The notes under the pieces are model-generated. The model saw only the letters and a program-made list of their open reading frames with translations. It searched no databases and was not told the DNA's origin. DNA of 64,000 bases from Acetobacter estunensis. Its GTDB lineage: Bacteria > Pseudomonadota > Alphaproteobacteria > Acetobacterales > Acetobacteraceae. The translations under genes were made by a program, and so were the position numbers. The stretch is from NCBI RefSeq assembly GCF_011516945.1, contig NZ_WOTH01000013.1, forward strand, positions 1 through 64,000, in the 5' to 3' direction. Below, piece by piece: positions 91-24,068 of the stretch (positions are counted from its first letter, which is position 1; each line of letters begins with the position of its first letter).

Positions 91-1044
91 TGTGAATCCC
101 CACAAACCCTAGTCCTCGGCGGAGCTGGAACCGGGAAAACGGTGCTGGCAATCGCTCGCGCCCAGCAACTCGCGAAAGACGGGTTCCGGACCATGTTAGT
201 CTGCTACAATGAATTGTTAGGCGCTGAGCTCGCTCGGCGCGTTGGCCAGACACCTAGCCTCACGGCTGGTACGTTTCATGCGCTATGCCTGCGAGAGGTG
301 CAACGCGCCGGGATAGTCGTCTCGAACAAGCGTGATCAAGCATGGTGGGAGGATGAGGCGCCATCAGTTCTCATCGATGCATGCTCGCGCAACGAAACCA
401 TCTACGACGCAATAGTCGTCGACGAAGGCCAGGATTTCTCGCCGAGCTGGCTCGATGCTCTCAAATGCGTGACTCGGAATGTCGAGGAAGCTCCGTTCTT
501 CATGTTCGCGGATTCGCGCCAAGACATTTGGCGCCGCGGGTGGGATCTCGATGCTGATTTCCCGTTTGTGTGGGAGTTGACGCGCAACATGCGTAACACC
601 CACCCGATCGCGAAACGCGTCGCGGCGATCGTGGGTGGCGATGCACAGGATCGTGGCATCCTTGGCCCCAATCCGATCTGGAGGGCGAGCGATGGGCCAG
701 CGAAAGAACGGGACGTCGTCAATGCCGTCGAGCATCTGCTGGATCAGGGATTCGGCCCCACGAGTCTCGTAGTCTTGTGCGGTTCGAGACGCATGGCGGA
801 GCGGTTGAGGGAACGATCAATCGGGCCGTTCTCGTTTGGGCTTTGGGGCAGTCGTGGTATTCCGGTGGAGACCGTATCGCGTTTCAAGGGCCTCGAATCG
901 CAAGCGATAATTCTCGTTCTCGATGGACCCTTCTCGAATGACGCGCCCACCTCAGCGTATGTGGGCATGAGCCGTGCCCGAAGCGTCCTAGTCGTGGTTG
1001 GCGACGGCGCGGATCAGTCACCGCTCAGCTGGGACACGCAGTGA
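91..1044 (+). pseudogene. UvrD/REP-type helicase, 5' end missing next to an IS
   Basis: This is a superfamily 1 ATPase/helicase. The reading frame is open from base 73 and has no plausible start before the Walker A motif GGAGTGKT (118-141), which normally lies well inside such proteins. It also carries motif II (VVDEGQD, about 415-435), a motif V/VI region with SRFKGLES, and YVGMSRAR near the end. Related proteins usually have an N-terminal nuclease-like (NERD) or other domain of 150 or more residues; here that part is absent and an IS5-type element abuts. In-frame TGA at 70-72 closes the frame upstream. The gene converges with drmB and overlaps it by 20 bases. Probably inactive unless translation starts at the GTG at 142, which would lose the Walker A motif. 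Confidence 0.75.
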
Positions 1045-2743
1045 CGTCGAAATAGCCAAGCCCCCCGGCAAGTGCTTTTCGCGACAGCCGCGTATTAAAC
1101 ATACGGCAGGAAGGTTCGCCCAGATGGAGACAGACCGCACAGGCACCTCCAGTGTCCTCGCAACCAGGGTCCAAAGCGCATCGGTGCTCGTCATCAACCA
1201 TCCCGTCCAATAGGTGATGGAGGTCGGATTCGAACAGAGCCTGTAGTCCGCCGAGCACGAAATCGCCGCGGGCTGCAGCATATACGAAGAATGAGAAGGC
1301 TGCTGGCAGGACGACCTCCGACAGGGCGCTTCGCTCGATGCCCGCAAAGACGGCGGCCCGTTTGATGAACGCATGCGAGATTGAATGAACCAGTTCGATC
1401 ACCTGCTCGGTGAGCGGATTGGGCCGGTCCATCGACCTCATCTCGGCCAGGATCGCTTCGGCCGCCTCACGACCTGTCGAAACGTCAGCGAACACGAAGC
1501 CCCGCTTGATCAACCATCGTAGGATCATCGTCGGGTCGAGCTTGACCAAGAGCGCCTCGGTCTGCGCCAAGTCACCATAGACGATGTATTCGCCGGTCTT
1601 CTCGCGATAGGTACGCAGCCTACTGTCACCGGGATTGGATTTGCCACGTGTGTAACCAAACTGAGCGGTAAGGACCGGGAACTTATCGATCAGTTCGATC
1701 CGCTCGATCCCAGCGCGCTTTAACGCGCGTGGGTAGTCCGATTGATATTGATCCCGCAGGACATCCGCAGTTGATCGAGCCAATAAATCGGCGATCTTGA
1801 TGCGGCTCTCGAAGGTCGCCAGCGCCACTTGCTTGGCTTGGCGTTCAGCATCTGCACGCAATTCAAGGTCGAGAACGAGAGACTTCTTCCCCGTCCCGGC
1901 CGCTTCAGGCATCGCAGCGATCATGGCGGAGATAGTCGCCTCGTCGAAGCCGCGGGCCTCAAGCAGCTTCCGGATTGATGTCGGGTTCTGTGCGGCCGCC
2001 GATTCGGTGAGCCGTCGCCCTACCATACCCTCAAGCATCCACTCGAGTGCCCGCTCTCCGCCTCCTGCCTGCTCAATCTGAACAAGAACCTCGCGACGCG
2101 GTGGATTGATCATGCTGATGCCGCGAGGCTTGAACACATTTCCCGATCGATGGACTGTGAATGAGAGCGCACCGCCCAGCGCGCAATCGCAGGATGCGCC
2201 GAAGCCGCGATCAAGATGCGTGCCTGGTGGGCACTCTGGGCAATAGAACACCAGTTCAGCTGCCGAGGCCGTTCCCGGGAAACGCACTGCCCTTTGTCCG
2301 TGCTGGGGACATTTTCGGACATATGGAGTTTTGATCGCGCCACAGGCTTCATGGTAGCCGACGAACGGGAGCTGGCCACGCCGCCCCGTCGCGCCGCATT
2401 TGCATCTTCCCATTGCATCATCATGGAGCCGCTTGCAGCGCTGGCACATGAAGAGCCGCGGAAACGGCTCGCAATAGAGACCTTCTTCCCGGTTCAAAGC
2501 GTGTACGCGCACCGGCTTGTGCGCCAGCAGATCATCGACGAAGCCGCCGTCTTGGCTTGGATTCGCCTCCTTCCAGGGATATGCTGCACGGATTAACTCC
2601 TCGCGCAGAGCCCCGGTGTCGATAGCCGTTACCGTTTTCGGATCATTCCACTTTTTGACCTTCCAGATGCCGCCGTCGGCGTCGACGGTCTGCTCGGGAA
2701 GATGCCCGAACAGTATTTGTGACCCGCTCCGCATCTCCCTCAT
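1025..2743 (-). CDS. drmB: DUF1998 protein, DrmB-like (DISARM-type defence)
   Basis: A protein of 572 residues. An N-terminal third rich in paired cysteines (CQRCKRL, then CKCG, CPQHG, CPECPPG and CDCALG, about residues 98-190) looks like a set of zinc ribbons. The C-terminal part (about 440-565) fits DUF1998: a helical block around HSISHAFIKRAAVFAG, then cysteines in CALDPGC and CAVCLHLGEPSCRMFN. In DISARM systems DrmB works with the helicase DrmA in blocking incoming phage DNA. The ATG overlaps the drmA stop codon (ATGA), so the two are translationally coupled. The reading frame is intact. The assignment rests on domain pattern and neighbour; no comparison was run. Confidence 0.8.
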   Translation of the reverse strand: MREMRSGSQILFGHLPEQTVDADGGIWKVKKWNDPKTVTAIDTGALREELIRAAYPWKEANPSQDGGFVDDLLAHKPVRVHALNREEGLYCEPFPRLFMCQRCKRLHDDAMGRCKCGATGRRGQLPFVGYHEACGAIKTPYVRKCPQHGQRAVRFPGTASAAELVFYCPECPPGTHLDRGFGASCDCALGGALSFTVHRSGNVFKPRGISMINPPRREVLVQIEQAGGGERALEWMLEGMVGRRLTESAAAQNPTSIRKLLEARGFDEATISAMIAAMPEAAGTGKKSLVLDLELRADAERQAKQVALATFESRIKIADLLARSTADVLRDQYQSDYPRALKRAGIERIELIDKFPVLTAQFGYTRGKSNPGDSRLRTYREKTGEYIVYGDLAQTEALLVKLDPTMILRWLIKRGFVFADVSTGREAAEAILAEMRSMDRPNPLTEQVIELVHSISHAFIKRAAVFAGIERSALSEVVLPAAFSFFVYAAARGDFVLGGLQALFESDLHHLLDGMVDDEHRCALDPGCEDTGGACAVCLHLGEPSCRMFNTRLSRKALAGGLGYFDVTACPS

Positions 2744-5700
2744 GACGTGCTGTTTCCCTTCAAGGGTGCCTGTTCCTCCACGTCGCGCAATGATGTCATC
2801 GGCGAACCGGTCGGCGACGCATCGGACGGGAACCGCGCATCAGCCGGAGGCTCCCGTAGATTCCGAGCGAAGCCTTCGAACCATCCCTGCAATTGCGCCC
2901 GCATGAACTCGTCATGCTCGTCGATCCCGATGTCGACTGCGATTGACCGCTCGTCATCGACCAGCATATCTGGATTGGCCTGCAAATATTGATTGAGGTC
3001 GCGGATCATCGTCATCCGGCCGTTTGAGGCTGGTTCATGGATCAGATTGATCCTAGCTAGCTCAAGACCTGATATCGTCCTCTCCAAGACCCTCCTGCTT
3101 TTCCGCGTGATCGGGATCGGCTCGACGAACCGATCGCCATGGGACACGAATTCTGGGAAAGCTCGATAAACGCTCGCGTCTCGCTCCCGGGTCATCTTGG
3201 GGACGACGATCACGAGTGCTGGCCACTTGCGACCGACGCGGGCAGTAGCTTGGATAAATTCCGCGACGCCGAGCGGAAAGGCCAACATGATCATCACATT
3301 GAGCCGATCGATGTCAACGCCGTGCGACATCATCGACGAGGCTGCGACTAGATGCAGTCGATCCTCATACTTCTGCTCGGCCGCCTCCAGTCGATCGAGC
3401 GTCCGCTTCACCTCTTCGAAACCGACTCTTCCGGTCAACGTGGCCACGTTGGGCGGAGGCTCAAGCTCGGCATATTGCGTCTCCGATGACCGAAGCACCG
3501 CGTCGATGTCCTGGAGCGTGTTCCCATAAATCACGTTCGTGCCGTACAGATCGATCAGGAATTGCGCGAAGCCTGCATCGATCGCTAGCTCGTTGCACAT
3601 CTGTTGAGGGTTGGAGACCATTCGACGGATGGCCCGCTGTAGGGTGACGATTAATCGATCCACGACAAACTCGACAGTCAGGCGGCGGGGCGCGAAGGCC
3701 ACGTATCTGCGCATCACCTGGCCAGAGTCAGCAGCCCAGAAACCTTGCCCATCAATCGGCGGAGGCTGCGGGAACACCCTAGCCTTGCGTCGGTAAAGAA
3801 CGTCGACTTGCTTGGCGTAGCCTGAAAGTGTCGCAGAAGAAGCGAGGATTTTCGGCTTGCTTCCGGTGAGCTGCTCCTGGATGCCGTCGAGAGCACACTC
3901 GTAATGCGCGTCGACCGCGCCGAGGCTGTCGCGGAGGAGATGCAACTCATCCTGCAAACGGAAACTCACCGGATAGAGTTCGGCCGCCATCGGCAAAGGA
4001 CCTGGCGCTCCACCGGGGCAGTCGGGGACGAAACAACCATTCGGGAACATGCTTCTGGTCGCATAGGTATATCCGTGGCCGGGCACTTTGCACTTGCCAT
4101 GAGGGCTGCCGACCAAGCCTCGCATTCCGGTCTGACGGGAGATGTTCGCGGCCTTGTCTAACGTCCCGATCACTATGGTCGGCAAGAAGCGCCAAATCTC
4201 ATCGTCGATGACATGGATCGGCAAAGGCGCGCCTGCCGTCGGGCAATCGGCGTTCGAGCAGATATGATCGAGGCGCCACAAGAGCCGGTCGAACTCGGTG
4301 CCAACGGTGCGTTCACGACAGAACGGACAACGGTCCAACAGCATGAAGGGATTCTGCTTCTCCTCCACCGTTTCCGCGTCGATGCCGCGTCGGGAACCGT
4401 CTTTCACGATTCTATTGGGTGTTGCACCCCCGCCGACGAGGAAACCCAGGGAGAATGGATCGCCGGGGAGGTCGACCTCTCGGCGGACCATCTCAGCGGC
4501 TGCAAGGGCATTCGCGAATCGCTGGGTCTGCTGCAACGACAGCAGCCGCAGTGGGAACCTCGACCATGCGGTGATCCCGGAAATCTTACCGCGCTTCCGA
4601 TCCAGGAACGCCGCGGTGAGCAGCAGGCCGAGATAGGTCTCGGTCTTACCTCCGCCCGTTGCGAACCAGACAATATCGACGATCTCCGCTTCGGCTATCG
4701 GGTCGACGAGACACCGCAGGTTCGCAAGTAGGAACGCGAGTTGGAAGGGCCGCCATTCATCGTACTTACCCGCCGCCGAAATCCGCATCGCCCGGTTCAT
4801 CAACTGGAAGGACGTGCGCAAACGCTCATTGGTCTCCAGCGACCGCACACCTGATCTGATCCGCTCTAGCTCCAATCGGAATTCGTCCTGTGCCTCTTGC
4901 GCTTCCTGGCGCATTCCGTCGGACCATTGCTCGGCACTGGCGCAAGCTTCAAGTGCGGCGTCAGACCAGACGCTGGCCGACCACTCCTCGAACGATCGCA
5001 GAAGACGACGGGCGCTTTCGATCGGGTCAGCCGCGAGTCTGGCGAAAGTCAGATCGGGCTTCTGGTCAGTTGACGGCCAGAACGTCGGCCGTTCTTTGGT
5101 GTGGGCTGGACCATCGCTCGTGCGGATTGTCCCCTCTTCGAAGATCGTGAAGCCGCAGTTGATGCCATAGGCCTGGACGTGTCGATCATAGCGGAACGAG
5201 TCGGGCAGCGTTTCCAGTTCGAAAGGCCGGCGCGCAAGGCCGATCACTTCCAGATAAGCTTCGAAGAAGCGTCCATCGGCGAAGTCGGTGATTTCTTGGC
5301 TAGTGTTGACGAACGTGATCTCCAAGGCTCGGGAGGACGGCGTGCGTCCGGTCATCCGGACGCGTATCTCCCCACTGAGACCCTCCGCACCGGTCGCAAC
5401 CAAGGCCTCGGTGATCGGTTCAGATCCGAAGATTTGATCCCCGTGCTTATCCTCGACGACGATCGGCACGGAGACGAGCACTGGATCGGTCTTGTCCCAC
5501 GCCCAACGGAGACCACCACCATCATCGGCCCTTCGTCGCTTCCAGAGGTGACTACCGACACGCACCTCGAATGAAAGGGGGAATTTCGCAGCAGGCCGAA
5601 TCCTCACACCGATCGCACAAGGCTCCAGTCGATCTTGCCGTTCGTCGGGGCGCGTCACGAAATCTTTGGGGCCAAGGCGTCCGAGCCAAAAACGGCCAGT

Positions 5701-5835
5701 TGGATCGACATGGGAACTGACTTCCTCATCTCCTCGCGCCTCGATCATCACCCGTCGCTCGAGCCATGCGACAAAGCGTTCCGCCGCTTGGTAACGAGCG
5801 GTGTCGTCGTTCGGGTTTTCGATCCAAGTGATCAT
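2740..5835 (-). CDS. drmA: SF2 helicase, DrmA-like (DISARM-type defence)
   Basis: A protein of 1031 residues with SF2 helicase motifs. Walker A lies in WFATGGGKTETY (about residue 390), followed by a block with AWSRFPLRLLSLQQTQRFA that resembles DrmA proteins. A DEAH-like motif II reads QDELHLL, an SAT-type motif III reads LASSATLSG, and motif VI reads QATARVGRKW near residue 880. Cysteine pairs between motifs I and II (CPFC and CSNADC, later CPGG) suggest an inserted zinc ribbon. In DISARM, DrmA with DrmB recognises and blocks unmodified entering DNA. I chose ATG 5835 rather than GTG 5841 because GAGGG lies six bases upstream. It follows the methyltransferase gene after about 190 bases and overlaps drmB by four. 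Confidence 0.82.
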   Translation of the reverse strand: MITWIENPNDDTARYQAAERFVAWLERRVMIEARGDEEVSSHVDPTGRFWLGRLGPKDFVTRPDERQDRLEPCAIGVRIRPAAKFPLSFEVRVGSHLWKRRRADDGGGLRWAWDKTDPVLVSVPIVVEDKHGDQIFGSEPITEALVATGAEGLSGEIRVRMTGRTPSSRALEITFVNTSQEITDFADGRFFEAYLEVIGLARRPFELETLPDSFRYDRHVQAYGINCGFTIFEEGTIRTSDGPAHTKERPTFWPSTDQKPDLTFARLAADPIESARRLLRSFEEWSASVWSDAALEACASAEQWSDGMRQEAQEAQDEFRLELERIRSGVRSLETNERLRTSFQLMNRAMRISAAGKYDEWRPFQLAFLLANLRCLVDPIAEAEIVDIVWFATGGGKTETYLGLLLTAAFLDRKRGKISGITAWSRFPLRLLSLQQTQRFANALAAAEMVRREVDLPGDPFSLGFLVGGGATPNRIVKDGSRRGIDAETVEEKQNPFMLLDRCPFCRERTVGTEFDRLLWRLDHICSNADCPTAGAPLPIHVIDDEIWRFLPTIVIGTLDKAANISRQTGMRGLVGSPHGKCKVPGHGYTYATRSMFPNGCFVPDCPGGAPGPLPMAAELYPVSFRLQDELHLLRDSLGAVDAHYECALDGIQEQLTGSKPKILASSATLSGYAKQVDVLYRRKARVFPQPPPIDGQGFWAADSGQVMRRYVAFAPRRLTVEFVVDRLIVTLQRAIRRMVSNPQQMCNELAIDAGFAQFLIDLYGTNVIYGNTLQDIDAVLRSSETQYAELEPPPNVATLTGRVGFEEVKRTLDRLEAAEQKYEDRLHLVAASSMMSHGVDIDRLNVMIMLAFPLGVAEFIQATARVGRKWPALVIVVPKMTRERDASVYRAFPEFVSHGDRFVEPIPITRKSRRVLERTISGLELARINLIHEPASNGRMTMIRDLNQYLQANPDMLVDDERSIAVDIGIDEHDEFMRAQLQGWFEGFARNLREPPADARFPSDASPTGSPMTSLRDVEEQAPLKGNSTS

Positions 5836-5877
5836 TAACACCCTCTATCAATGATGGGCGGAAGCGCACAATACCTA

Positions 5878-6013
5878 TCAGACGCCGGCTCTTGGTGGGC
5901 CGAGTAATTCAACCAGATCATCGATGAGCCCACGCTTGCTTTTCAATCCACATTGCCAGGTCGTCAAGACTTCCAAACTGCGCCGTCTGGGAAACGTGAT
6001 GTTGGTCGCGATT
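5878..6013 (-). pseudogene. Vsr mismatch endonuclease, C-terminal relic
   Basis: Between the methyltransferase and drmA, minus-strand translation gives EVLTTWQCGLKSKRG and then LIDDLVELLGPPRAGV followed by TGA. The segment VLTxWQCxLK plus a trailing amphipathic helix and LGPP is how very-short-patch repair endonucleases end. Just upstream another frame reads FNRDQHHVSQTA, resembling the preceding Vsr helix, so a frameshift lies near 5970. Everything N-terminal, including the catalytic part, is gone. Vsr enzymes repair T:G mismatches caused by deamination of 5-methylcytosine and are normally encoded beside cytosine-5 methyltransferases, as here. Confidence 0.6.
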
Positions 6014-6024
6014 AAACCCACCTC

Positions 6025-7710
6025 TTAATTCGAGATGCTATCTTTCTGTCGATCCCAGCAGAAGACCCGCGCGAGCAGGAGCGGGTTTACCGTCGAGCCG
6101 ATGAGCAGTCCGGCCAAGATCGTCGCCGAGTTCCGCGTTAATTTGGCCACCCCCGACAGGGCTTCTGCGGCGGCGCCATGTTGATGCTGGATAAGTGCTT
6201 CAATCACGCTGGCGGCTTCGTCTGCGTGTTGCGAAAGCGATGCAGACAGCGCTGAACCGATCTCGTCCAGCTTATCGAGGAGCATGAATGGCCGGATGCC
6301 CCCCGGTCTGCGATGCGTCCAGACGGCTTGCATATTGCGGATGTCGGCAGACGCAACAAATTGACGCACTTCCTCGAGATAGGGAGCGGCGGCCTGCTTC
6401 AAAGCTTTCTTGGACCTAGTTTTGAGGTATCTCGCGGTCTCCTCGTCCAGTTGGAGGGAATGGATCGCTTTTGATGTGCCAAAATAGAAGGCCACGCCCC
6501 ATTTAACGATCTCGCCCGAGCAATCATTGTCAAGCTCGAAGCGCACCCCACTCTTCAATTGAAGGCTGGGGATCGCGAACTTGAACGTCCTGTTGGCCGG
6601 GTAGCGCACGCCAGCACGATCTGGAGGGGTCTCGACCGGGATCGGCTCTGGTCGACGAAGGGCAGTCGCGGCTTGAGGAAGCAATGGCACCTCCTTCGCG
6701 TTGCGCCGCTGCAGCACCTGTCCCATAAGGTAGGAAAAAGCCGGAGGGATCGCGTTGCCGATCATACGGAGTTTTTGGCCATAGTTAGCGCCGTAGAATT
6801 GGAAGGTGACCGGAAATCCTTGGAGACAGGCGCGCTCGCGCAGGGTTAACCTCCGGTAGGCGTCATCGCGGCCAGGCACCGCGATGACGATGCTTTCGCG
6901 TGAAACCCTAGTGCATGTCGCCGTGATGGTCCGCACGGTCCTGTCCATCGGATCAGGGAACGGCATCGAATTATAGACCGTGTGCGTCATTTTGTTCGCA
7001 CGGTTGATCCGAACCTCTTCCGGGCTCAGTAAATCCTCTTCGACATGGTCTATCAGGTCGGAGCGATCGATCTCGAAACCATAGATCGGATCGACCACCG
7101 GAGTGGCCGCCAACCCGGAGACAATGTCGCCAAGCGTGCATGGGGCCGACGTAGGCTTGTACGATTTGAGCAACTCCATGTCGAAATTGCCCGCGATGCA
7201 CCGACGCCGGCGTTGCGGAATGCCGAATTCGGCCATGTCGACGACGTGCGTTACACAGCCGAGATGAGAGAAGTCCGCCAAGACGCCGCCAACTTCGAGT
7301 TCCTTTTCGATGATCTTCGCCACCCGTGGGACGTTCTCCATCGCCCACATCCGCGGCTTCAGGTGATCAACGATCGTCAAGAATTGGATGATGTCCTTCA
7401 AGCCATCGACGAGGTCACCACCGCCTCCACGATTACTGAAGGAAAATTGGGTACAAGGTGGACTACCGACGACAATGTCGATATCGGTCGGCAGGTCCTT
7501 GAGGGCCAACCGACGGATATCGACGGTCTGGGCCTGATGCGAGTTGTTCTTGAAATTGGTCTCGTTCGCTGGTCCCCAGAGCTCGTAGGATGCAACCACC
7601 TCCACGCCGGCCAGTTGGAGGCCAAGCGACCATCCTCCGACGCCAGAATAAAGATCGATTGCCCTCGCTGTCCGCACTCTTTTGTCCATGCCGCCCCGAC
7701 TCCGCTTCAT
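6025..7710 (-). CDS. DNA (cytosine-5) methyltransferase, DrmMII-like
   Basis: A protein of 561 residues that transfers a methyl group to C5 of cytosine in DNA, presumably marking host DNA in the adjacent DrmA/DrmB system. Motif I is AIDLYSGVGGWSLG, motif IV holds the catalytic cysteine in GSPPCTQFS, motif VI is ENVP, motif VIII is PQRRRRC, and motif X is GNAIPPAF. The catalytic domain ends near residue 350. About 210 further residues without a recognised fold follow, more than a minimal enzyme needs. TTG 7746, ATG 7710 and ATG 7689 are all possible starts; I prefer 7710. A Vsr relic follows directly. In class 2 DISARM the methyltransferase is of this m5C type. Confidence 0.85.
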   Translation of the reverse strand: MKRSRGGMDKRVRTARAIDLYSGVGGWSLGLQLAGVEVVASYELWGPANETNFKNNSHQAQTVDIRRLALKDLPTDIDIVVGSPPCTQFSFSNRGGGGDLVDGLKDIIQFLTIVDHLKPRMWAMENVPRVAKIIEKELEVGGVLADFSHLGCVTHVVDMAEFGIPQRRRRCIAGNFDMELLKSYKPTSAPCTLGDIVSGLAATPVVDPIYGFEIDRSDLIDHVEEDLLSPEEVRINRANKMTHTVYNSMPFPDPMDRTVRTITATCTRVSRESIVIAVPGRDDAYRRLTLRERACLQGFPVTFQFYGANYGQKLRMIGNAIPPAFSYLMGQVLQRRNAKEVPLLPQAATALRRPEPIPVETPPDRAGVRYPANRTFKFAIPSLQLKSGVRFELDNDCSGEIVKWGVAFYFGTSKAIHSLQLDEETARYLKTRSKKALKQAAAPYLEEVRQFVASADIRNMQAVWTHRRPGGIRPFMLLDKLDEIGSALSASLSQHADEAASVIEALIQHQHGAAAEALSGVAKLTRNSATILAGLLIGSTVNPLLLARVFCWDRQKDSISN

Positions 7711-7862
7711 AGTTCCACTTGAATAGATCTTCTCCGGATTTGGCAAGATTCTTTCTCGCCAGATCGTCAGAAAGCGCCGATTGATCTCTCAATGATCTCG
7801 AACAAATGAAGAAGCGCAAGCCGCGCCCAGAAAACGAAAGGCGACTATTGCGGCAGCGGAGC

Positions 7863-8210
7863 TCAACCAGCCATGAACGGGCGGACATGTTCTTTGCCGC
7901 CATCAAAACAGGGTTGGCACTGTCAAAATTGGCGCGCTGATCGGCAATGCCATAGAACCATTTTGGCCCGTGGATGAGATTATTGCGCGGTCGGTGTACG
8001 ATCAGCAGCGCGGTCAGGACGGCGGCCGGATCGTTATGACCGGCAAGGACCGGTTGGGTCGTCAGGACATACGTCGCCGCCATGTTGAGGCCGCCAAACC
8101 GCTCTGTGAGCCTTCCGTCCTGCCATTACCGGTCACGAAAATAAGCGAACGACTCTGGGACCAATGCTGGATTGAGGCAGTCGGCTGCATCAATTAACGG
8201 CCTCTGGCGA
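7863..8210 (-). pseudogene. Relic of a HEPN-motif protein
   Basis: Minus-strand translation gives LIDAADCLNPALVPESFAY, FRDR, a TAA stop (8126-8128), and then in the same frame WQDGRLTERFGGLN and a longer segment containing RNNLIHG followed by KWFYGIADQRANF. R-N-x-x-x-H is the signature of HEPN RNase domains. The stop falls where an aromatic residue would be expected. Near 7890 a missing base would restore a short C-terminus (KEHVRPFMAG, stop at 7863-7865). The 5' part is missing, and the relic abuts the truncated helicase at about 8210-8250. No function can remain unless the fragment starting at 8083 is made. Confidence 0.5.
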
Positions 8211-8247
8211 ACCGTGAGTCGCCAGAAGCGACGCCTCAAACAGGCCC

Positions 8248-10391
8248 CATATCTGTTTCGATAATCGCGTGCAGGTCGTGGCATCGGCCGGATCTGGCAA
8301 GACTTCAATCATGGTGGCAAAGGCTGCGTACGCCATCCATCGTGGGTTTATGGCTCCGCAGAATATTGTTCTGATGGCTTTCAATAAAAAGGCAGCCGAG
8401 GAACTGAAGGATCGCGCCATTCGTGCTTTTGAACGCCTCGGCATGGATGGCAATGGCGTTGAGGCCACGACGTTTCATGCGTTGGGATTAGGCATTATCG
8501 GCAAGGCGACGGGTAAGAAACCCGATGTTCCAGCTTGGACGACTGATACCGGAGCCTCGTGCGAGAAGATCCTCGAGATTGTGGACTGCCTAAAAGATCA
8601 GTCCGATGAGTTCCGGACGCGGTGGGATATGTTTCGTATGGTCTTTGGTCGTGATCTGTCACCACCAGGTCAGCCCGTCGAGGGCGACGCCTGGGACAGA
8701 ATGGGGACGGCTCTGATTAAGACTCTGGATGGCCAGCGCGTGCGCAGCCAGGAAGAGGCCATTATCTGCAACTGGCTTTTTTATAATGGTGTTCATTACG
8801 AGTACGAGCGCCCTTATGAAACGGACACGGCAGACGTAGCGCATCGACAATACAAGCCTGATTTCTATTATCCCGACATTCTGCTGTATCACGAGCACTT
8901 CGCGTTGGATGCAGAGGGCAAAGCGCCGCCCCAGTTCAAGGACTACGTGGAAGGGGTGAAGTGGAAACGACAGCTCCATCACGACATGGGGACTGCGCTG
9001 ATTGAAACGACTTCACATCAGGTAAGAAACGGCGGTGTTTTTGAGCATCTTGCTCATGAACTGACGTCACGTGGCGTCAAATTGGATCCCAATCCGAACC
9101 GGCCTATTCCTCAGGGTGCGATAAGGCCAATGGAAGCGATGGAGCTTGCTTACCTGGTTCGCAGCTTTATCAGTCATGCGAAAAGCAACTGCCTCAATTC
9201 TACAGATTTGCGACGTCGTCTGGATGCCATGCCAGAAGGCTCATTCAAGTATCGCCATCGCATGTTTCTGGATCTTTTTGAGCCAATCATTGCGAACTGG
9301 GATCGTGCTTTGGCTGAAGACGGCGGGATCGACTTTGAAGACATGCTCAATATGGCAGTAGAACATGTTGAGCAGGGACGCTGCCAGGTTCCGTATGATC
9401 TGGTTATGGCGGATGAGTTCCAGGATGCGTCCCGCGCTCGTGCCCGTCTGTGTCGTGCGATGGTACAGAAACCGGGACGCCACTTCTTCGCCGTTGGCGA
9501 CGATTGGCAGTCGATCAACCGTTTCGCCGGAGCAGACGTGTCGGTCATGACAGACTTCGAACGCTGGTTCGATCATGGCCAGCTTCTGAAGCTGGAGCAG
9601 ACGTTTCGTTGCCCGCAGGCGCTGTGTGATGTCTCTAGTCATTTCGTCACTAAGAATCCGACACAGATCCGTAAGCGGGTGCATTCGGACACGCCAGCCG
9701 TCGGCCCCGTGCTCCAGGCACTCGAGGTAAGCAAAGAGCGTGAACTCGAACGAGCCGTCGGAGAATTTCTGGCCTCTCTCTACCAAGGAATATGTGCCGG
9801 ACACATTCCTTTGGGGCGGCACGGTAACGTATCAGTATTTTTTCTAGGACGTTATAGGGCCGATAACCGGAGCATCTGAGGCGCTGGAAATCTCAGTACG
9901 GCAGCAAGATTGAGCTATCTTTCGTGACGATTCACAGCTCAAAAGGCAGTGAAGCCGACTATGTCATTCTGCCATCAATGATCAGCCGTTTACGCGGCCT
10001 TAGTTTTCCAAGTACGCGGACGGATGATCCTGTACTGCAGATGGCCATGCCCTCGGGTGATAACTTTCCTCAAGGTGAAGAGCGACGGCTGTTTTATGTG
10101 GCACTGACGCGTGCTCGCCGGTCGGTGATCATGTTCACGGTTAAGGGTGAGCGCTCCACCTTTCTCGATGAACTAGTCGCTGACAAAGCGGTCACAGTGA
10201 CGAATCTCCATGGGGAGAAGATTGAGGAGCAGCGATGTCCGGCATGTAAGCGAGGAGTGATTGTCACACGGACAGGACCCTTTGGTGAGTTCCAAAGCTG
10301 CTCCAACTATCCTGCGTGTGAGTATAAACCGTCCTCAAAAGATTATTCTAAAAATAGAAAAAAACTCTCTGAAATCCTCTCTCATCTGTGA
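8248..10391 (+). pseudogene. UvrD/HelD-like helicase with zinc-finger tail, truncated and frameshifted
   Basis: This is an SF1 DNA helicase related to helicase IV. Homologous sequence begins about ICFDNRVQVVASAGSGKTS (Walker A, about 8251-8307) with an in-frame TGA at 8215-8217, so the N-terminal region is missing. Motif II reads MADEFQDASRAR and motif III reads VGDDWQSINRF. The frame breaks near 9867: RYRADN continues one base out of phase as PEHLRRWKSQYGSKIEL and on to TIHSSKGSEADYV and LTRARRSV (9924-10391). One added C in AACCGG would join the frames. The tail has a topoisomerase-type zinc finger (CPACKRG then CSNYPACEY). It may be a genuine mutation or a sequencing error; the missing 5' end argues for a pseudogene. 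Confidence 0.8.
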
Positions 10392-10700
10392 GTGACGAGG
10401 TGGTTCTGGTTCTCTCCGACGCATAGAGAATTAACCGAAAGAAGATGCGGACGTTTCAGTGCGGTAGTTTTAAAATAACGCTTGAAATCTTCCGTATGCT
10501 TCATGGTCTCGTCGGTCTCCTGATACGAACTTAAAACGCTCAGATGACCGGCACAAAACCATTACAAGTGGCGGGTTCGAAGAATCGTTGATTGAAGACC
10601 TTTCTGCCTGATTTTGGGCTTATAGTCTGGTATTGAAGGCTCTGTATGGTGATTTTTACTCTGCGTTTTAAACAGAGAGAGGGTTTCATGCTCTGGATTG
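10392..10700. other. Non-coding stretch between helicase relic and IS remnant
   Basis: No convincing gene is present. The reading frames are short and interrupted, and I recognise no structured RNA or site here. Confidence 0.5.
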
Positions 10701-11400
10701 CTACGCGGCGGCGTTAATCCGCTCCAAGAGGAGAAAGCGGCGCATATTATAGACGATGGTGGCTCGAGCGATGCCTACAGTCCGGACGAACAGCCCCGTC
10801 TGTGATTTCTGATCGGCAAAGACATTCTCGACATGCGGCCGGATGATGAACTTTCCGGCATTGGAGCGTTGGGTGTGCCAGGGCATAGGCTTGAGATGCA
10901 GCTTCTTGCGATGGATTTTTTAGACAAAGCTTTGCTTTTCCATGAAGTCCTCATTGGCTTTTGAACGGGAGACTGTGTTTGCCCAAAGTATTGAGGCTGT
11001 ATTGGTTTTATCAAGCAAGCCTTCTCTCAATCGCGCACCATCACTGGCGGCGGCATCTGTCGTCTTCTATTTGCGGAGCAGACGAAACTTCCGGTCGATG
11101 GAAATATGAGATTTGTAGCCAAAGAACGGGATGGCCACGTCTGTTGCGGGCATACTCCCGTCCTCCTTTCGTTTCGCTTTCGTGAACTTCAACGTCCAGC
11201 GCGCATGACGGTCCTTGTGGGACAGCTTGGAGGCTTGTCCTGCCTGTCCCTGTGGGATCCGTCGGATCCATCCTTCCCGCAGATCCGCCTTTTCATCGTT
11301 GGTATTGCGCTACTTTGGGGCTGCTACCAATGTTGCAGCCAGAATCTGGCCTGACATCGACAGATACGGGCGATGATCATGTTTGTGGAGAAGACGCGTC
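10700..11400 (-). mobile_element. Decayed IS5-family transposase
   Basis: Minus-strand fragments in several frames read like an IS5-family DDE transposase. From N to C they are AGRMDPTDPTGTG, KLSHKDRHARWTLKFTKAK, ATDVAIPFFGYKSHISIDRKF, GARLREGLLDKTNTASI with LWANTVSRSKANEDFMEKQ and a stop, then IRPHVENVFADQKSQTG with LFVRTVGIARA and the terminal ERINAAA. The usual WADTAYRS aspartate is asparagine here, and about six residues are missing after GIARAT. Stops and frameshifts occur throughout, and the N-terminal part is incomplete, so the element cannot encode its own transposase. Confidence 0.7.
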
Positions 11401-11429
11401 CTCTCGATTCGAATCCGATTCGCGCAGAA

Positions 11430-11845
11430 AGTGATTATTTTTACATCATTTGAATTTATGCCTTTTTATTTGAAGTAAATAAATAATTGAAATAAAATTA
11501 GAATATTCATTATCGTATTAGAGTAATATCGTATAACTTCAATTTATTTTATTGTTTATTTGAACATATTGAGTAATTTTTTCTCCTTTTCATATTTATA
11601 TTAAAAATATGAGCGAATGTTATTTTTAAGTTCAAGGGTTGGAAATTGCTAAGCCGCATATATTCACGTGTCAAGTCGATAATATATGAAAATATACATA
11701 TTAATACATAATTTTGGCAACAAACCGAAGAATTAGGCACTATTTTTTGCTGATTATCAGGAGTTTTTTCTATATTTGTACAGATAAAAATATTTTATTG
11801 TTTTAAGTCACGTTTTTTCGAGATATACCATTAGCATCAGAGGCG
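11430..11845. other. AT-rich block without genes
   Basis: About 400 bases have far lower GC content than the flanks, with long A/T runs (for example 11455-11560). No credible coding sequence is present; a 63-codon minus-strand frame (11549-11740) is what random AT-rich DNA gives. Its place, directly before the AlpA-like gene and near the integrase, suggests a regulatory or recombination region. That role is inferred. Confidence 0.6.
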
Positions 11846-11910
11846 ATATGCCTCGATATACTCTAATTTTAAAAGTAATTATTGGAGTATATGTTTTCTC
11901 GGAGGTAATG

Positions 11911-12102
11911 ATGGCAGAAAATCTTCTGACAATTGCTCAGGTGTGCGAACGCGTGTCTATGTCGGCGTCTCACATACGCAAAAGGATTAAGCTGGGAAAA
12001 TTTCCAGCGGCGACGCACAGGTTGAGCACACGTATGGTGAGATGGAGCGAAAGCAGCATTAATGAATGGATTGAAAAGACGCACGAGCAGAAAAAACACT
12101 AA
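11911..12102 (+). CDS. AlpA-like helix-turn-helix regulator/excisionase
   Basis: A protein of 63 residues with a MerR/AlpA-type winged helix: LLTIAQVCERVSMSASHIRK is the helix-turn-helix and is followed by KLGKFPAATHRLSTRMVRWS and a short helix ending in INEWIEKTHEQKK. AlpA proteins activate integrase or excision genes of P4-like islands. I chose ATG 11911 because GGAGG (11901-11905) lies five bases upstream; ATG 11908 is also possible, and the longer frame from 11848 has no such signal. The gene converges on the integrase with an 87-base gap. Confidence 0.8.
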   Translation: MAENLLTIAQVCERVSMSASHIRKRIKLGKFPAATHRLSTRMVRWSESSINEWIEKTHEQKKH

Positions 12103-12189
12103 ACTGTTGAATATAAAACAGAATAACTCATGACTCATGTGTAGAATGAAATGAATGGAAGAATTTACTCGATACGACGATCACCGACC

Positions 12190-13398
12190 TCACCGTTTTC
12201 TGTGTTGTAGAAGTGTCACGGCGTCGGCTGCGTCTGACATCAGAAGATCGGCCCATATCTGAGCCAGCTCCTGCCGACGTTCCATATGCAGAGCCCGGTT
12301 ATACGCGGCTTCAACTCTGTTTTGATTTGAGTGTGCCAGCATAAGATCAATGACAGCTCTGTCCTGCGGATAATGCTCGTTCATGATGGACGAAAACGAA
12401 GCACGAAAACCATGTGGCACCTGTCTGCCAGCGTAGCCTGCCCGCTGCAGAAGATAACCGAGAGCGTTTTCGCTCATCGGGCGATGGGCCCACCGCGCAT
12501 TAGGAAAAACAAGAGGGCCTCTGCCCGTCAGCGTAAAGACCGCATCAAGAATGTCCCGTGCCTGACGCGATAAGGGAACAACGTGCTCACGCCGCATCTT
12601 CATGCGCTCTGCTGGAATGACCCAGGTGGTTCTGTCCGCAGACACCTCATGCCAGGCCATTGCATGTACTTCACCGGGACGCACAGCAGTCAAAGCCAGA
12701 AAACGCATCGCCAGAAGCGTAACCGGATGGGCCGGGATGGCTTCGACGTCCTGGAAGAGCTGTCTTAGCGCATCAAGATCAATGAGGGCAGGTTGCCGTC
12801 CTTTCTTCAGAGGAGCCAGAGCGCCTTTGATAACGGCGGCGGGATCATGAGAACCCAGCCCATGCGCGATACCGAACAGAAAAATTGCACTTAATCTCTG
12901 TCTGATCCGGCGCGCCGTTTCCTTCGCACGCCCAGCTTCAATTTTCCTGATTGCTTCAAGGACCATCGGAGCAGTGATATCGTCCAAGTCGATGTGCCCC
13001 AGATGCGGCCAGATCAGACGCTGAAGACTCGTTCGAACGTCTTCACTGTGTCGGGGTGTCCACCGGGCAGATTGAGTCTGAATCCACATTTCGCCGACAT
13101 GCTGCAGCTGTCTATCAGTGCGCCTGGCTTGCGCTTGTCTCTGACGACGGGTCAGAGATGGATCACGGCCCGCCCGCAGCTCCGCGCGTGCCTGATCACG
13201 GGCGTCACGGGCCGCTGCAAGCGTCACCTCAGGGTAAGCGCCAAAAGCGAGCAGCTTTTCCCGCCCACCAAAGCGATACTTCATGCGCCACAGACGCGAG
13301 CCATTTTTCTGGACCAGAATGAACAGTCCGCCTGTATCGGCAAGCTTGTATGGCTTCTCTCGGGGTGCGAGGCGACGCAGCTGAACGTCTGTCAGCAT
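12190..13398 (-). CDS. P4-type tyrosine integrase
   Basis: A site-specific recombinase of about 402 residues that inserts and excises the island. The N-terminal arm-binding domain (DUF4102) begins MLTDVQLRRLAPREKPYKLA and contains GGLFILVQKNGSRLWRMKYR. The catalytic domain shows TAVRPGEVHAMAW (first Arg), PHGFRASFSS (His-x-x-Arg box), then MLAHSNQNRVEAAYNR with the nucleophilic tyrosine. A longer frame reaches 13449, but homologues start at MLTD (13398). The gene lies about 155 bases from the 3' end of tRNA-Ser, in the same direction, the usual arrangement for islands integrated in tRNA genes. All catalytic residues appear present. Confidence 0.93.
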   Translation of the reverse strand: MLTDVQLRRLAPREKPYKLADTGGLFILVQKNGSRLWRMKYRFGGREKLLAFGAYPEVTLAAARDARDQARAELRAGRDPSLTRRQRQAQARRTDRQLQHVGEMWIQTQSARWTPRHSEDVRTSLQRLIWPHLGHIDLDDITAPMVLEAIRKIEAGRAKETARRIRQRLSAIFLFGIAHGLGSHDPAAVIKGALAPLKKGRQPALIDLDALRQLFQDVEAIPAHPVTLLAMRFLALTAVRPGEVHAMAWHEVSADRTTWVIPAERMKMRREHVVPLSRQARDILDAVFTLTGRGPLVFPNARWAHRPMSENALGYLLQRAGYAGRQVPHGFRASFSSIMNEHYPQDRAVIDLMLAHSNQNRVEAAYNRALHMERRQELAQIWADLLMSDAADAVTLLQHRKR

Positions 13399-13552
13399 TG
13401 ATACCCCAACACCAGAAATGATACCCCCATATCTACCCCCACAATGCATGAGCTTGAAGGAACATCACAGCGCGTCATAGAGCACATAAACGGCAGAAAA
13501 CTGCCAGCCTTTCTGTGCTTGAAACGCTATAGACTGCTATGGGATATATCAA

Positions 13553-13642
<90 letters not shown>

Positions 13643-13880
13643 ACACGCCTTGCGGCGTTGCCAGCGGCTTTTAGGGAAACCCGATGGGAATGACAAGAGC
13701 CATTTTCATCTTCCGGCGTTTCCTGTTGACGGATCGGCATGACGCCGCGTAAAAGCGCCACTCCGCCACCATAAGGCGGGGCAGGCCGCGTATGACGGTC
13801 AACGAGAAGAAGCGACTGGACTGATCGCCTGTGTGAAAGCGCCGCGAGAGGTCGATTGATCGGAAAGAGACAGTTTCAGA

Positions 13881-14195
13881 ATGTTCGCAGTCATCCGCAC
13901 CGGCGGCAAGCAGTATCGCGTTACACCGAACGCCGTTCTCAAGGTCGAGAAGCTTGAGGGTGAGGCCGGTTCGACCATCACCTTCTCCGAAGTCCTCGCA
14001 GTAGGCGGTGAAGCCGGCACAACCATCGGCGCGCCTCTCGTGGCAGGTGCCACGGTGACGGCTACGGTCGTCGCACAGGATCGTCTTCCCAAGGTGATCA
14101 TCTTCAAGAAGCGTCGCCGGCAGAACAGCCGCCGCAAGAACGGTCACCGTCAGCCGGTCACCGTCCTGCGCATCAGCGAGATCAAGGCTGCCTGA
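13881..14195 (+). CDS. rplU: 50S ribosomal protein L21
   Basis: A protein of 104 residues beginning [20 protein letters not shown], the strongly conserved L21 start, with the basic [16 protein letters not shown] segment near the end that contacts 23S rRNA. It is followed 60 bases later by rpmA, the standard L21-L27-Obg order. The 238-base gap between the tRNA and this gene presumably holds the operon promoter; I could not define its elements. Confidence 0.97.
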
Positions 14196-14255
14196 TTTCT
14201 CTCCCTAGTAAGGGATTGAAGATTTCAGGCGGCAAGACACTAAGGAGCAAGACTT

Positions 14256-14525
14256 ATGGCACAAAAAAAGGCAGGCGGTTCATCCCGCAACGGACGCGAC
14301 AGCGCAGGCCGTCGTCTCGGTGTGAAGAAGTTCGGCGGCGAAGCCGTCGTGGCCGGCAACATCATCGTCCGTCAGCGCGGCACGAAGATGCTCGCTGGTG
14401 AGAATGTTGGCGTGGGTCGTGATCACACACTGTTCGCGCTGACTGACGGAAGCGTGCGTTTCCAGCGTCGTGCAAATAGCCGTGTTCATGTTTCGGTCGA
14501 AGCACTGCCGATCGCGGCCGAGTAA
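14256..14525 (+). CDS. rpmA: 50S ribosomal protein L27
   Basis: A protein of 89 residues starting [20 protein letters not shown], typical of L27, whose N-terminal tail reaches the peptidyl-transferase centre of the ribosome. The tail is of the proteobacterial type, without the cleaved N-terminal extension seen in Firmicutes. It lies between rplU and obg; a clear intrinsic terminator follows. Confidence 0.97.
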
Positions 14526-16783
<2,258 letters not shown>

Positions 16784-16791
16784 ATTACTTT

Positions 16792-16819
16792 GTCCGGGCC
16801 ACTAAGAGGTGGCCCGGAC
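16792..16819. terminator. Hairpin between convergent proB and gatB
   Basis: GTCCGGGCCAC, loop TAAGAG, GTGGCCCGGAC is a perfect 11-base-pair stem placed between two converging genes. It lacks a strong T run on either side, so it may be a bidirectional but weak terminator. Confidence 0.65.
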
Positions 16820-16827
16820 AGACGCCA

Positions 16828-18282
16828 TCAGGCGTCCAGCTTTTTGCGAAGGATGTCGTTGACGATGGCCGGGTTGGCTTTGCCTCCGGTTGCCTTCATC
16901 ATCTGGCCGACAAAGAAGCCGAAGAGCTTGTCTTTGCCGCCACGGTATTCCGCCACCTTATCAGCATGTTTCGTGATGATGTCATCGGCTGCGGTTTCAA
17001 GGGCACCCGTATCCGTCACCTGCCGCAGGCCTTTGCGCTCCACGATTTCGAGCGGTGCTTCACCTGTTTCGAACATCGTCTCCAGCACATCCTTGGCGAT
17101 CTTGCCATTGATTGTGCCGTCCGCGATCAGATCCAGCATCGCGCCTAGATTTTCCGAACTAACCGGGCTTTCTTCGATCGACTTTCCCGTGCGGTTGAGG
17201 GCCGCAAAGAAATCCCCTGTTACCCACGCACTAGCGGATTTGCCGTCACGACCTTTGGCCACGCGCTCATAAAAATCCGCTGTGGGTTGCTCAGCCACGA
17301 GAACGCCAGCATCATAAGCCGTGATGCCATACTCCTGCTGAAAGCGTGCGCGTTTCTCGTCAGGTAATTCAGGCAGGGTCTGCTTGAGCTGATCCACCCA
17401 ATCCTGTTCGATCACGAGAGGAAGCAGGTCCGGGTCAGGGAAGTAGCGGTAATCGTGCGCATCTTCCTTGGAACGCAGGGAGCGTGTTTCGCCCTTGTTC
17501 GGATCGAACAGGCGCGTTTCCTGATCCACTTCGCCGCCGGCTTCCCAGATCTCGATCTGGCGTGTGGCTTCGATCTCGATGGCCTGCATGACAAAGCGGA
17601 TCGAGTTGACATTCTTGATCTCGCACCGTGTGCGGAACGGCTCTCCGGCCTTGCGCACAGAGACATTCACGTCGGCACGCATGGAGCCTTCTTCCATGTT
17701 GCCGTCACAGGTGCCGAGATAACGCAGGATCTGACGCAGTTTGCGCAGATAGGCGCCAGCTTCTTCGGGAGAGCGGATATCGGGTTCGCTGACGATTTCC
17801 ATCAGGGCGACACCGGCGCGGTTGAGATCCACGAAAGAGCGTTTCGGATCCTGATCGTGCATCAGTTTGCCCGCATCCTGTTCAAGATGCAGGCGCGTGA
17901 TGCCGATTTCGCGCGTACTGCCATCCGAAAGCTCGATCAAGACGATGCCCGTGCCGATGATCGGATGCTCGAACTGGCTGATCTGATATCCGGTGGGAAG
18001 ATCCGCGTAGAAGTAGTTCTTGCGGTCGAACCGGCTTTCCAGGTTGATGTGCGCCTTCAGGCCAAGACCAGTGCGGACGGCCTGTCGCACACATTCCTGA
18101 TTGATGACCGGCAACATGCCCGGGAAACCGGCGTCAATGAGACTCACATGTGAGTTCGGTTCCCCTCCGAAGAGGGTGGACGCGCCCGAGAACAGCTTGG
18201 ACTGGCTGATGACCTGAGCATGTACCTCAAGTCCAACGACGATTTCCCAAATACCGGTGTTGCCTTCAAGTGTGTAGGTCAT
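16828..18282 (-). CDS. gatB: Asp/Glu-tRNA amidotransferase subunit B
   Basis: A protein of 484 residues, the tRNA-binding and kinase-like subunit of GatCAB, which amidates Glu-tRNA(Gln) or Asp-tRNA(Asn). Signature segments are [50 protein letters not shown] and the C-terminal YqeY-like tail ending [19 protein letters not shown]. It is the last gene of the gatC-gatA-gatB operon and overlaps gatA by four bases. Confidence 0.96.
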
Positions 18283-19763
18283 GCATCCGCTCCCGCCCGC
18301 AAATCCGGACGAGCCGTGAATCCGGCGGCCTTTTCCAAGCCCGAACCCACGGCAATCAGTGTTTCTTCATCAAAGTGGCGACCGATCAATTGAAGCCCGA
18401 GGGGCAGGCCCTGACTGTCGAGACCGATCGGCAATGACATTCCGGGTTGCCCCGCCATGCTGGCCGGAACGGTGAAGACATCATTGAGATACATCTGCAC
18501 CGGGTCGACTGGCTTCTCGTCGCGACGGAAGGCGGCCGTCGGGGCCGTCGGCGTCAGCAATACGTCCACTTTTTCGAAAGCTTCCGTGAAATCACGACGG
18601 ATCAGTGTGCGGACTTTCTGCGCCTTCAGATAGTAGGCATCGTAGTAACCTGCGGACAGAACGTAGGTGCCCACCAGAATACGGCGGCGCACTTCCTCGC
18701 CAAAGCCATCGTGACGCGTCTTTTCATACATCTCGTCGAGGCTTGTGGCACCTTCGGCCCGAACGCCGAAGCGTACGCCGTCATAGCGGGCGAGGTTGGA
18801 CGAGCATTCAGCGGGTGCGATGATATAGTAGGTCGCCAGCCCATATTTCGTGTGGGGCAGGGAGACGTCCACGATCTCACATCCAGCCTCACGCAGCATG
18901 TCGATGCCTTTCTGCCAGACCGCGAGGATTTCCTCGGACATACCGGACGCACGATATTCGGCCGGGATGCCGACACGCAGACCTTTGAGGCTCCGACCAC
19001 AGGCTGCCCTGTAATCCGGCACAGGAAGATTGGCCGAGGTGCTGTCCTTCGGGTCGTGACCCGCCATCGCGCCGAGCATGATGGCAGCGTCTTCCACTGT
19101 GCGGGTCATTGGTCCCGCCTGATCCAGCGAGCTTGCGAAGGCGATCGTGCCCCAGCGGCTGCATCGTCCATAGGTGGGCTTGAGACCGACGATACCGCAA
19201 TAGGCGGCCGGTTGGCGGATGGAGCCGCCGGTGTCGGTGCCCGTCGCACCCATCGCCAGATGTGCGGCTACGGCAGCGGCCGATCCACCGGATGATCCAC
19301 CCGGAACCAACGGGGACGGATCATTCGCACGGTGCCAGGGGTTCTCGACTTCTCCGAAAGCGGACGTGAGATTGGCCGATCCCATGGCGAATTCATCAAG
19401 GTTGGTCTTGCCGAGGAAGATCGCTCCGTTCTTGAGCAATTTCGCCGTCACCGTGCTCTCATAGGGAGGGATGAAATTGGCGAGGATTTTGCTGGCGGCC
19501 GTGGTTTTTACGCCATCGGTGCAGAACAGATCCTTCACCCCAAGCGGGATTCCGGTGAGAACGGGTGCCTCTCCAACTGCGAGTGCTGCGTCAGCTTTTG
19601 TCGCGGCATCGAGAGCCTTGTCGGGCATTGGCGTGATGTAGGCGTTGAGACGTCCATTCAGCGCTTCAATGGCGGTGGTGTGCGCCAGCGTCAGTTCGAC
19701 CGCCGAAAAGTCCTTTTTTCGGAGACCGTCAGCCGCCTGTGCGATCGTGAGATCTGTCAGCAT
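18279..19763 (-). CDS. gatA: Asp/Glu-tRNA amidotransferase subunit A
   Basis: The glutaminase subunit of GatCAB, 494 residues, which releases ammonia for transfer to the charged tRNA. The amidase signature is present: [18 protein letters not shown] with the catalytic lysine, [13 protein letters not shown] with the cis-serine, and [15 protein letters not shown] with the nucleophilic serine. It starts on the last base of the gatC stop codon and overlaps gatB by four bases. Confidence 0.96.
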
Positions 19764-20053: not shown

Positions 20054-20125
20054 GAAGTAGAACTCTCAACTCAAGGGAAAAAAAGTGCTGGCGTTGCCAC
20101 CGGCCCGGTAACATACCGTCAAGCC

Positions 20126-24061: not shown

Positions 24062-24068
24062 TCCCACA

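Follow-up and report, generated by a model that had tools for sequence, protein, structure and literature searches.

What does a set of DISARM (defence island system associated with restriction-modification) genes do when its expected partners are not beside it? The question is raised by the beginning of contig NZ_WOTH01000013.1 of Acetobacter estunensis (C13 below), of which we analysed positions 1-64,000, called the window here; its start coincides with the end of the contig. Three long open reading frames stand there, all open and all on the minus strand in the list of reading frames of the window, and a first-pass annotation had taken them for a functional and selected three-gene version of class 2 DISARM. 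Our results suggest another answer, which we consider probable: the trio would belong, as one of two arms, to a DISARM-like restriction unit of five genes that moves horizontally, in which a helicase with a nuclease-related domain (NERD) and a UvrD motor replaces DrmC, and expression is under the control of a sigma factor dedicated to the unit. The three genes are the following.

7746-6025, minus strand: 5-methylcytosine (m5C) DNA methyltransferase with a C-terminal extension of about 235 residues (PF00145, E 3.6e-40, residues 28-338 of 573)
5841-2740, minus strand: DrmA-like helicase of superfamily 2 (SF2, YprA family), 1033 residues, with PADLOC, NCBIfam and PDB profile matches
2743-1025, minus strand: DrmB-like protein, 572 residues, with an MZB/DUF1998-type C-terminal part and PADLOC and PDB profile matches

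That these are three intact genes on one strand was correctly seen by the first-pass annotation: all are open, their profile matches are significant, and the length of the reading frames together with the E-values makes chance no concern. The DrmA-like and DrmB-like genes overlap. The methyltransferase probably starts at 7689 rather than at 7746, judging from the alignment with its relatives, and is 79% identical to its homologue in Sphingopyxis sp. Root154 and 74% to that of Sphingomonadales UBA7473. Pfam cut-offs are passed by PF00145 in the methyltransferase and by the helicase C-terminal domain in the DrmA-like protein; the DrmB-like protein has a sub-threshold match to the MZB domain alone. 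The C-terminal part of the methyltransferase was rightly described as uncharacterised, at about 235 residues rather than about 210: it has no Pfam match up to E 0.1, and its structure model, of low confidence (predicted local distance difference test, pLDDT, 64.7), matches nothing in the PDB at E 0.001 or below. This part (window 6028-6711, minus strand) is conserved among relatives at 62-67% identity.

The five-gene reading rests on the loci in which relatives of the trio occur. A scan of the genome_contigs collection with the single DrmB protein and no profile, which reaches close relatives only, returned three loci, in Root154, in UBA7473 and, as a fragment, in Sphingomonas sp. SRS2. In the plasmid collection 84 records match DrmA, and the close relatives among the best 30 of these 84 are Burkholderia aenigmatica (64% identity) and Roseomonas sp. 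OT10 (54%). Root154 and UBA7473 have the genes for the methyltransferase, DrmA and DrmB, in this order, converging on a sigma factor gene followed by one for a NERD-UvrD helicase, all open (the UBA7473 DrmB includes a run of N). The Burkholderia plasmid has the same order of five genes, with the methyltransferase, DrmA and DrmB in pieces, the last containing an IS3 transposase gene, and with sigma and NERD-UvrD open. In the genome of the window the same five genes are spread across two contigs, each of them ending in one and the same insertion sequence (IS). The Roseomonas plasmid has sigma, DrmA, DrmB and a different methyltransferase, with sigma directly before drmA. Hence, sigma is found in five and NERD-UvrD in four of the six loci, our own genome included, the sixth being the SRS2 fragment.

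The borders of the shared block were tested with stop-to-stop frames of at least 90 residues from the Root154, UBA7473 and Burkholderia loci, compared at E 1e-8 with each other, with Roseomonas, with the first 14 kb of the window and with the second contig (C80). The conserved block is made up of the five genes, together with frames that shadow them on the antisense strand, and the one extra match is that of the UBA7473 integrase to the integrase of the window (47%). We favour a five-gene unit because the order is the same in Root154, UBA7473, the decayed Burkholderia locus and the genome of the window, and because sharing stops at the five genes, the integrase apart. It is also favoured because sigma stands beside drmA in Roseomonas and because NERD-UvrD stands behind drmB in other alphaproteobacteria. 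The latter are Azospirillum, R. rhizogenes and R. ruizarguesonis, where NERD-UvrD lies directly downstream of drmB, in the slot of DrmC, and another UvrD gene precedes drmA. Two separate lineages thus carry NERD-UvrD at the DrmC position, and its recruitment to DISARM-like systems looks recurrent from these gene orders.

In the genome of the window the helicase gene is in two parts.

109-1044, plus strand: C-terminal part of the NERD-UvrD helicase, from just before Walker A, converging on the trio
C80, 2411-3085: first part of the NERD-UvrD helicase, in the same genome, on a contig of 3193 bases
1-108, no strand assigned: end of an IS5-family element interrupting the NERD-UvrD gene, with CTAG at both junctions

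In the Burkholderia homologue, residues 1-241 match the end of C80 and residues 224-532 match C13, at 58% and 59% identity, and the two parts are 82-84% identical to the intact genes of Root154 and UBA7473. The Root154 protein has both the NERD domain (PF08378, 1.7e-16) and the UvrD/AAA_19 motor (PF00580, 8.6e-10). The IS ends on C80 and C13 are inverted copies, identical at 16 of the first 17 bases and at 16 of 26 overall. All 110 bases of the C80 end match positions 23358-23467 of the Komagataeibacter xylinus E25 plasmid, and the inner 44 of the 105 bases at the C13 end match its positions 24065-24108 in the opposite sense, as expected for the two ends of one element of about 0.8 kb. All 105 bases of the C13 end also match, at 92%, an annotated IS5 family transposase region on a Kozakia plasmid. 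The same IS end is present at four further places in the genome, and the assembly breaks at the start of C13 because the element is multi-copy. We infer, with some force, that C80 and C13 are adjacent. The NERD-UvrD gene would then be split by the IS, so that the cassette of this genome is probably impaired, with its nuclease step lost. The converging helicase noted downstream of drmB in the first-pass annotation is real, but what stands in the window is no more than the C-terminal portion of a split gene.

Judging from omega, the ratio of nonsynonymous to synonymous substitution rates, the five genes evolve under purifying selection: each gives 0.03-0.10 among our genome, Root154 and UBA7473, wherever it could be computed. 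These values are rough, with dS (synonymous divergence) of 1.3 or more, near saturation, and the C-terminal part of the helicase was not computable between our genome and UBA7473. With Roseomonas or Burkholderia omega is 0.15-0.54 or saturated.

The unit also appears to be infrequent. The whole-genome samples were drawn and overlap, and at most two candidates were scored in most genomes. In the family sample 22 of 299 genomes had a match at E 1e-20, all except our own at 30-42% identity; the order sample gave two of 395 at E 1e-100, our own and one further genome, whereas the class sample (E 1e-60) and the phylum sample (E 1e-110) gave our own genome alone, one of 385 and one of 398. Relatives in viruses were not found in three protein-based viral_contigs scans, with a DNA pattern of the altered sigma region (see below) or by tblastn of phages. 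The best reading of these searches is that the five-gene unit is rare and mobile.

How close is the trio to DISARM itself? PADLOC profiles were run on eight proteins of the window (for two of them we read the best 25 of 60 and the best 25 of 46 matches). The PADLOC DrmA profile matches the DrmA-like protein at E 7.7e-100, and the DrmB profile matches residues 336-561 of the DrmB-like protein at E 1.1e-34, its N-terminal half being without a match. The family profiles also match the solved structures: that of DrmA matches 7s9v_A (E 9.7e-73), from chain residue 456 onwards, beyond the published trigger loop at 176-232, and that of DrmB matches the C-terminal part of 7s9v_B (E 6.1e-6). In NCBIfam the DrmA-type model (DrmAS) scores 361 bits against a cut-off of 950, and the DrmB model 58 bits against 240. 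By these profile and structure matches the trio is related to DISARM, as the first-pass annotation had proposed, the DrmB-like protein being linked through its C-terminal part; the DrmA-like and DrmB-like proteins nevertheless fall under the NCBI cut-offs for DISARM proteins. Its assignment of the methyltransferase to drmMII stands only in part: the enzyme is a C5 methyltransferase, but MTase_II (1.2e-45) ranks ahead of DrmMII (1.1e-25) among the PADLOC profiles. The different methyltransferase of Roseomonas gives MTase_II at 1.9e-84, then DrmMII at 2.5e-82.

Also in agreement with the first-pass annotation, DrmC, DrmD and DrmE are not among the PADLOC matches listed for the eight window proteins. 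Neither the class 1 proteins DrmD and DrmMI nor the class 2 protein DrmE appear among the matches listed when nine flanking proteins of the Root154, UBA7473 and Roseomonas loci are added to these eight; the rest of the genome was not searched for the former, and no genome-wide profile search was made for the latter. Nucleases of the phospholipase D (PLD) type to which DrmC belongs are not in the cassette: PF13091 has four matches in our genome (two on C4, one on C35 and one at C13:61427), and its eight matches in Root154 and UBA7473 are all outside the cassette stretches. The PLD protein on C35, weakly DrmC-like (1.4e-9), was considered as the missing DrmC and set aside on account of nearby conjugation genes.

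A maximum likelihood tree of 31 DrmA-type rows places our genome, Root154, UBA7473 and Roseomonas in one clade with support 100/100 and a long stem, separate from the NERD-linked Rhizobium and Azospirillum rows and from the class 2-like and drmA rows; its root is arbitrary, several rows are long or partial, and the class 2-like and drmA labels come from neighbours or annotation.

The fifth gene, an open sigma-70 gene on C80, stands directly before the first part of NERD-UvrD and its product is 54% identical to the Burkholderia homologue. The genome has two other sigma-type matches, on C14 (RpoD, 668 residues) and C12. The Root154 sigma contains regions 2, 3 and 4 (PF04542, 2.3e-17; PF04539, 5.6e-6; PF04545, 2.7e-16) and is 47% identical to the RpoD of our genome across 255 residues; the Roseomonas sigma is 34-37% identical to those of the other cassettes. 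The helix of region 4.2 is nearly identical to that of RpoD. Region 2.4 is altered in four of the five copies, which read WWIEQRI(Q/R)RA (WWIEQRMRRA in Burkholderia) against WWIRQAITRS of the RpoD type, while Roseomonas retains WWIRQAITRA. This suggests that the cassette sigma may recognise a -35 element of the normal kind but prefer an unusual -10. A region 1.1-like N-terminus was also considered and dropped, its alignment being weak (4.2 bits) and invisible in Pfam.

The best profile match of the sigma is MzaA, both in PADLOC (189 bits) and in NCBIfam (256 bits against a cut-off of 800, narrowly above RpoD at 248); no other Mza proteins are among the matches listed in the PADLOC scans. PMC9523054 states that mzaA, of the MZA defence system, encodes a sigma factor. 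A sigma-like helix-turn-helix domain is reported in BrxL of BREX (PMC12839542). The accessible portions of the literature searched (including PMC12458937, PMC8565338, PMC12839542, PMC9142583, PMC9252829, PMC9523054 and PMC10924106) describe no sigma factor together with DISARM or DUF1998, and a search pairing 'sigma factor' with DUF1998 returned no papers.

Could the cassette have promoters of its own? A short element ahead of the methyltransferase is conserved.

7738-7750, minus strand: short conserved element AATCTTGCCAAAT ahead of the methyltransferase gene, identical to Root154 at 12 of 13 bases and similar in UBA7473 and Burkholderia

The 13-base form of Root154, GATCTTGCCAAAT, is matched at 12 of 13 bases in the window and in UBA7473 and at 11 of 13 in Burkholderia. 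Such matches were equalled by six (window), two (UBA7473) and 26 (Burkholderia) of 20,000 random sequences, numbers that flatter the motif, which was picked post hoc. Seven matches of at least 11 of 13 occur in the six sequences scanned, five of them before the methyltransferase and two elsewhere. The 60 bases further upstream are dissimilar (14-19 of 60), and the bases of the element also encode a similar peptide in Root154, UBA7473 and the window. The element may act as a promoter or operator, or it may be what is left of a reading frame upstream. A promoter common to both arms was sought and not found.

Several observations weigh against the five-gene reading. All five genes are together in four loci only, three of them fairly close (74-93% protein identity), and the link between C80 and C13 in one of these runs through a multi-copy IS and not through contiguous sequence. 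The Roseomonas unit has a different methyltransferase and no NERD-UvrD annotated beside it, and in Sphingomonas naphthae, Leisingera, Miltoncostaea and Thermomicrobium relatives of sigma or NERD-UvrD have other gene contexts. The likeness to DrmB is restricted to the C-terminal part of the protein, whose AlphaFold model reaches a pLDDT of only 31 (two sequences). Finally, the upstream element is a poor fit to a -35/-10 pair and might derive from coding sequence, and its best match before the sigma gene is 7-9 of 13, i.e., it is not present there.

These points leave room for other explanations. The methyltransferase, DrmA and DrmB might be a reduced, self-sufficient three-gene DISARM to which the other genes are incidental, and the trio is indeed open in the window although an IS cuts the helicase. 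Yet no trio-only locus was found among those compared: sigma and NERD-UvrD are attached in all three other loci with the same trio (Root154, UBA7473 and Burkholderia), Roseomonas, with its other methyltransferase, has sigma, and SRS2 is a fragment. Nor is the open trio evidence for a working three-gene system when the probable executor gene of the unit is itself split: the cut falls inside the probable system, and both halves of the helicase are still open, so that the insertion looks recent and is silent on selection for the trio. What stands of the first-pass annotation here is purifying selection on the trio between genomes, not its three-gene version, which we regard as unlikely. A separate defence or regulatory module of sigma and NERD-UvrD, merely adjoining the trio in a defence island, seems equally unlikely. 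It would explain why these two genes are on the opposite strand, why no NERD-UvrD is annotated beside the Roseomonas unit, why relatives of both occur elsewhere and why the helicase resembles reverse-transcriptase-associated and other defence helicases (RTasNERD-Hel in PADLOC, 9.4e-51). It does not easily account for one block common to Acetobacteraceae, Sphingomonadales and Burkholderia beyond which the integrase alone matches, nor for a sigma kept beside drmA in another order in Roseomonas and a NERD-UvrD right behind drmB in other alphaproteobacteria.

The part played by sigma can also be read otherwise. Instead of regulating the cassette, it could be an active part of the response, e.g., a sensor or competitor at RNA polymerase during phage takeover. 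Its RpoD-like sequence, in which region 2.4 is altered in four of the five copies, would fit, and so would the sigma factor MzaA as a member of the mzaABCDE system (PMC9523054); but regulation is the simplest task to ascribe to a sigma factor, and we think this third possibility very improbable.

If the five-gene unit is the right reading, its mode of action can be outlined from the known families. The methyltransferase would mark host DNA with 5-methylcytosine for protection, and DrmAB would sense unmodified DNA of an incoming phage or plasmid, load onto it where it is single-stranded or has a 5' overhang, and then translocate. Such loading is described for DrmAB, with DrmC dispensable, in PMC9142583. 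The NERD domain and UvrD motor would cut and unwind the DNA, supplying the nuclease of DrmC. More tentatively, sigma would direct RNA polymerase to promoters of the cassette itself, as a private regulon for the defence arm; the coupling between DrmAB and NERD-UvrD, like the role of sigma, is a conjecture of ours. In the genome of the window this would leave the methyltransferase, DrmAB and sigma, with the nuclease step probably lost through the IS.

Class 2 DISARM consists of DrmA, DrmB, DrmC, DrmE and DrmMII (PMC9252829). Like it, the unit encodes its DrmA-like and DrmB-like proteins in separate genes that are neighbours, and has a cytosine-5 methyltransferase, but it was found without drmC or drmE, has NERD-UvrD and sigma, falls in a DrmA clade of its own with a long stem and scores below NCBI cut-offs. 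The Azospirillum, R. rhizogenes and R. ruizarguesonis rows share the replacement of DrmC by NERD-UvrD right after drmB; they differ by their DrmA clade and by the extra UvrD protein that comes first, and no sigma or cytosine methyltransferase is annotated in the fetched stretches, the plasmid gene tables being incomplete. With mzaABCDE the likeness is a sigma-70 family factor within a defence system, MzaA being its best profile match, whereas the cassette sigma is under the MzaA cut-off, hardly above RpoD, and without other Mza proteins among the matches listed. ARMADA, TALON and BRIGADE (PMC12458937) have a YprA-family helicase core as well, and TALON has a NERD nuclease, but in these systems helicase and DUF1998 part typically form a single fusion protein, and the partners are PglX/BrxHII or TOTE-type proteins, whereas DrmA and DrmB are separate genes here, as in DISARM. 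The same paper mentions many uncharacterized DISARM-like classes, and the unit may be one of these. Other arrangements were encountered on plasmids. A Tsukamurella row (3051-18043 of the stretch) has a cytosine methyltransferase, a UvrD protein, a DrmA-like protein, DUF1998, a DEAD/DEAH helicase and a restriction subunit, and is another DISARM-like arrangement; two alphaproteobacterial plasmids (stretches 2683-10710 and 4124-10686) have a very large DEAD/DEAH or DUF3883 protein with a NERD-UvrD helicase directly after it.

The trio lies in an island whose remaining features are these.

5899-6012, minus strand: probable remnant of vsr (very short patch repair), located after the methyltransferase gene and before drmA (tblastn E 0.004, four short stretches searched)
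8269-10391, plus strand: helicase IV-like UvrD gene, broken into two frames near 9880-9924 and apparently without its start; its product has a topoisomerase-type zinc ribbon
11848-12102: AlpA-like regulator reading frame, open
12190-13449, minus strand: tyrosine integrase of the island, open, P4-type (PF22022, PF13356 and PF00589, all over cut-off)
13554-13642, minus strand: tRNA-Ser(CGA), adjoining the integrase

The tRNA gene is likely the integration site, because the integrase stands beside it. The earlier statement that all surrounding island genes are damaged could not be confirmed, given that the integrase and the AlpA-like reading frame are open; the helicase IV-like gene is in two frames. 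There is an AT-rich stretch at about 11420-11840. A decayed IS5-family copy lies at 10640-11400. It matches 50 plasmid records, every one of which comes from Acetobacter, Gluconobacter, Komagataeibacter, Kozakia or Neokomagataea, and the best 10 are 79-84% identical. The vsr fragment at 5899-6012 is a probable gene remnant; in UBA7473 a second probable one at about 6590-6810 (plus strand; tblastn E 3.6e-4 in the same search of four short stretches) is in another state of decay. An annotated vsr gene is present beside the Roseomonas unit (10360-10743 of the fetched stretch). Beside the Root154 unit (14912-20474) are a KAP-family nucleoside triphosphatase with weak likeness to PifA/QatA, a DUF4238 protein and one further, unknown protein; together they may form another defence system.

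Our results raise the possibility, which we put forward tentatively, of a DISARM-derived system with its own sigma as a regular part, transcriptionally self-governing or sensing phage takeover of RNA polymerase, and with NERD-UvrD as executor in place of DrmC. The route from DrmAB activation to DNA destruction is called a mystery in PMC9142583, since DrmC can be dispensed with and is often absent. A NERD-UvrD helicase tied to DrmAB would be a natural variant that offers a directly testable candidate for this executor. A dedicated sigma, if true, would make the unit, beside MzaA, a further defence system equipped with an RNA polymerase specificity subunit of its own, and could account for expression of the cassette in distant hosts.

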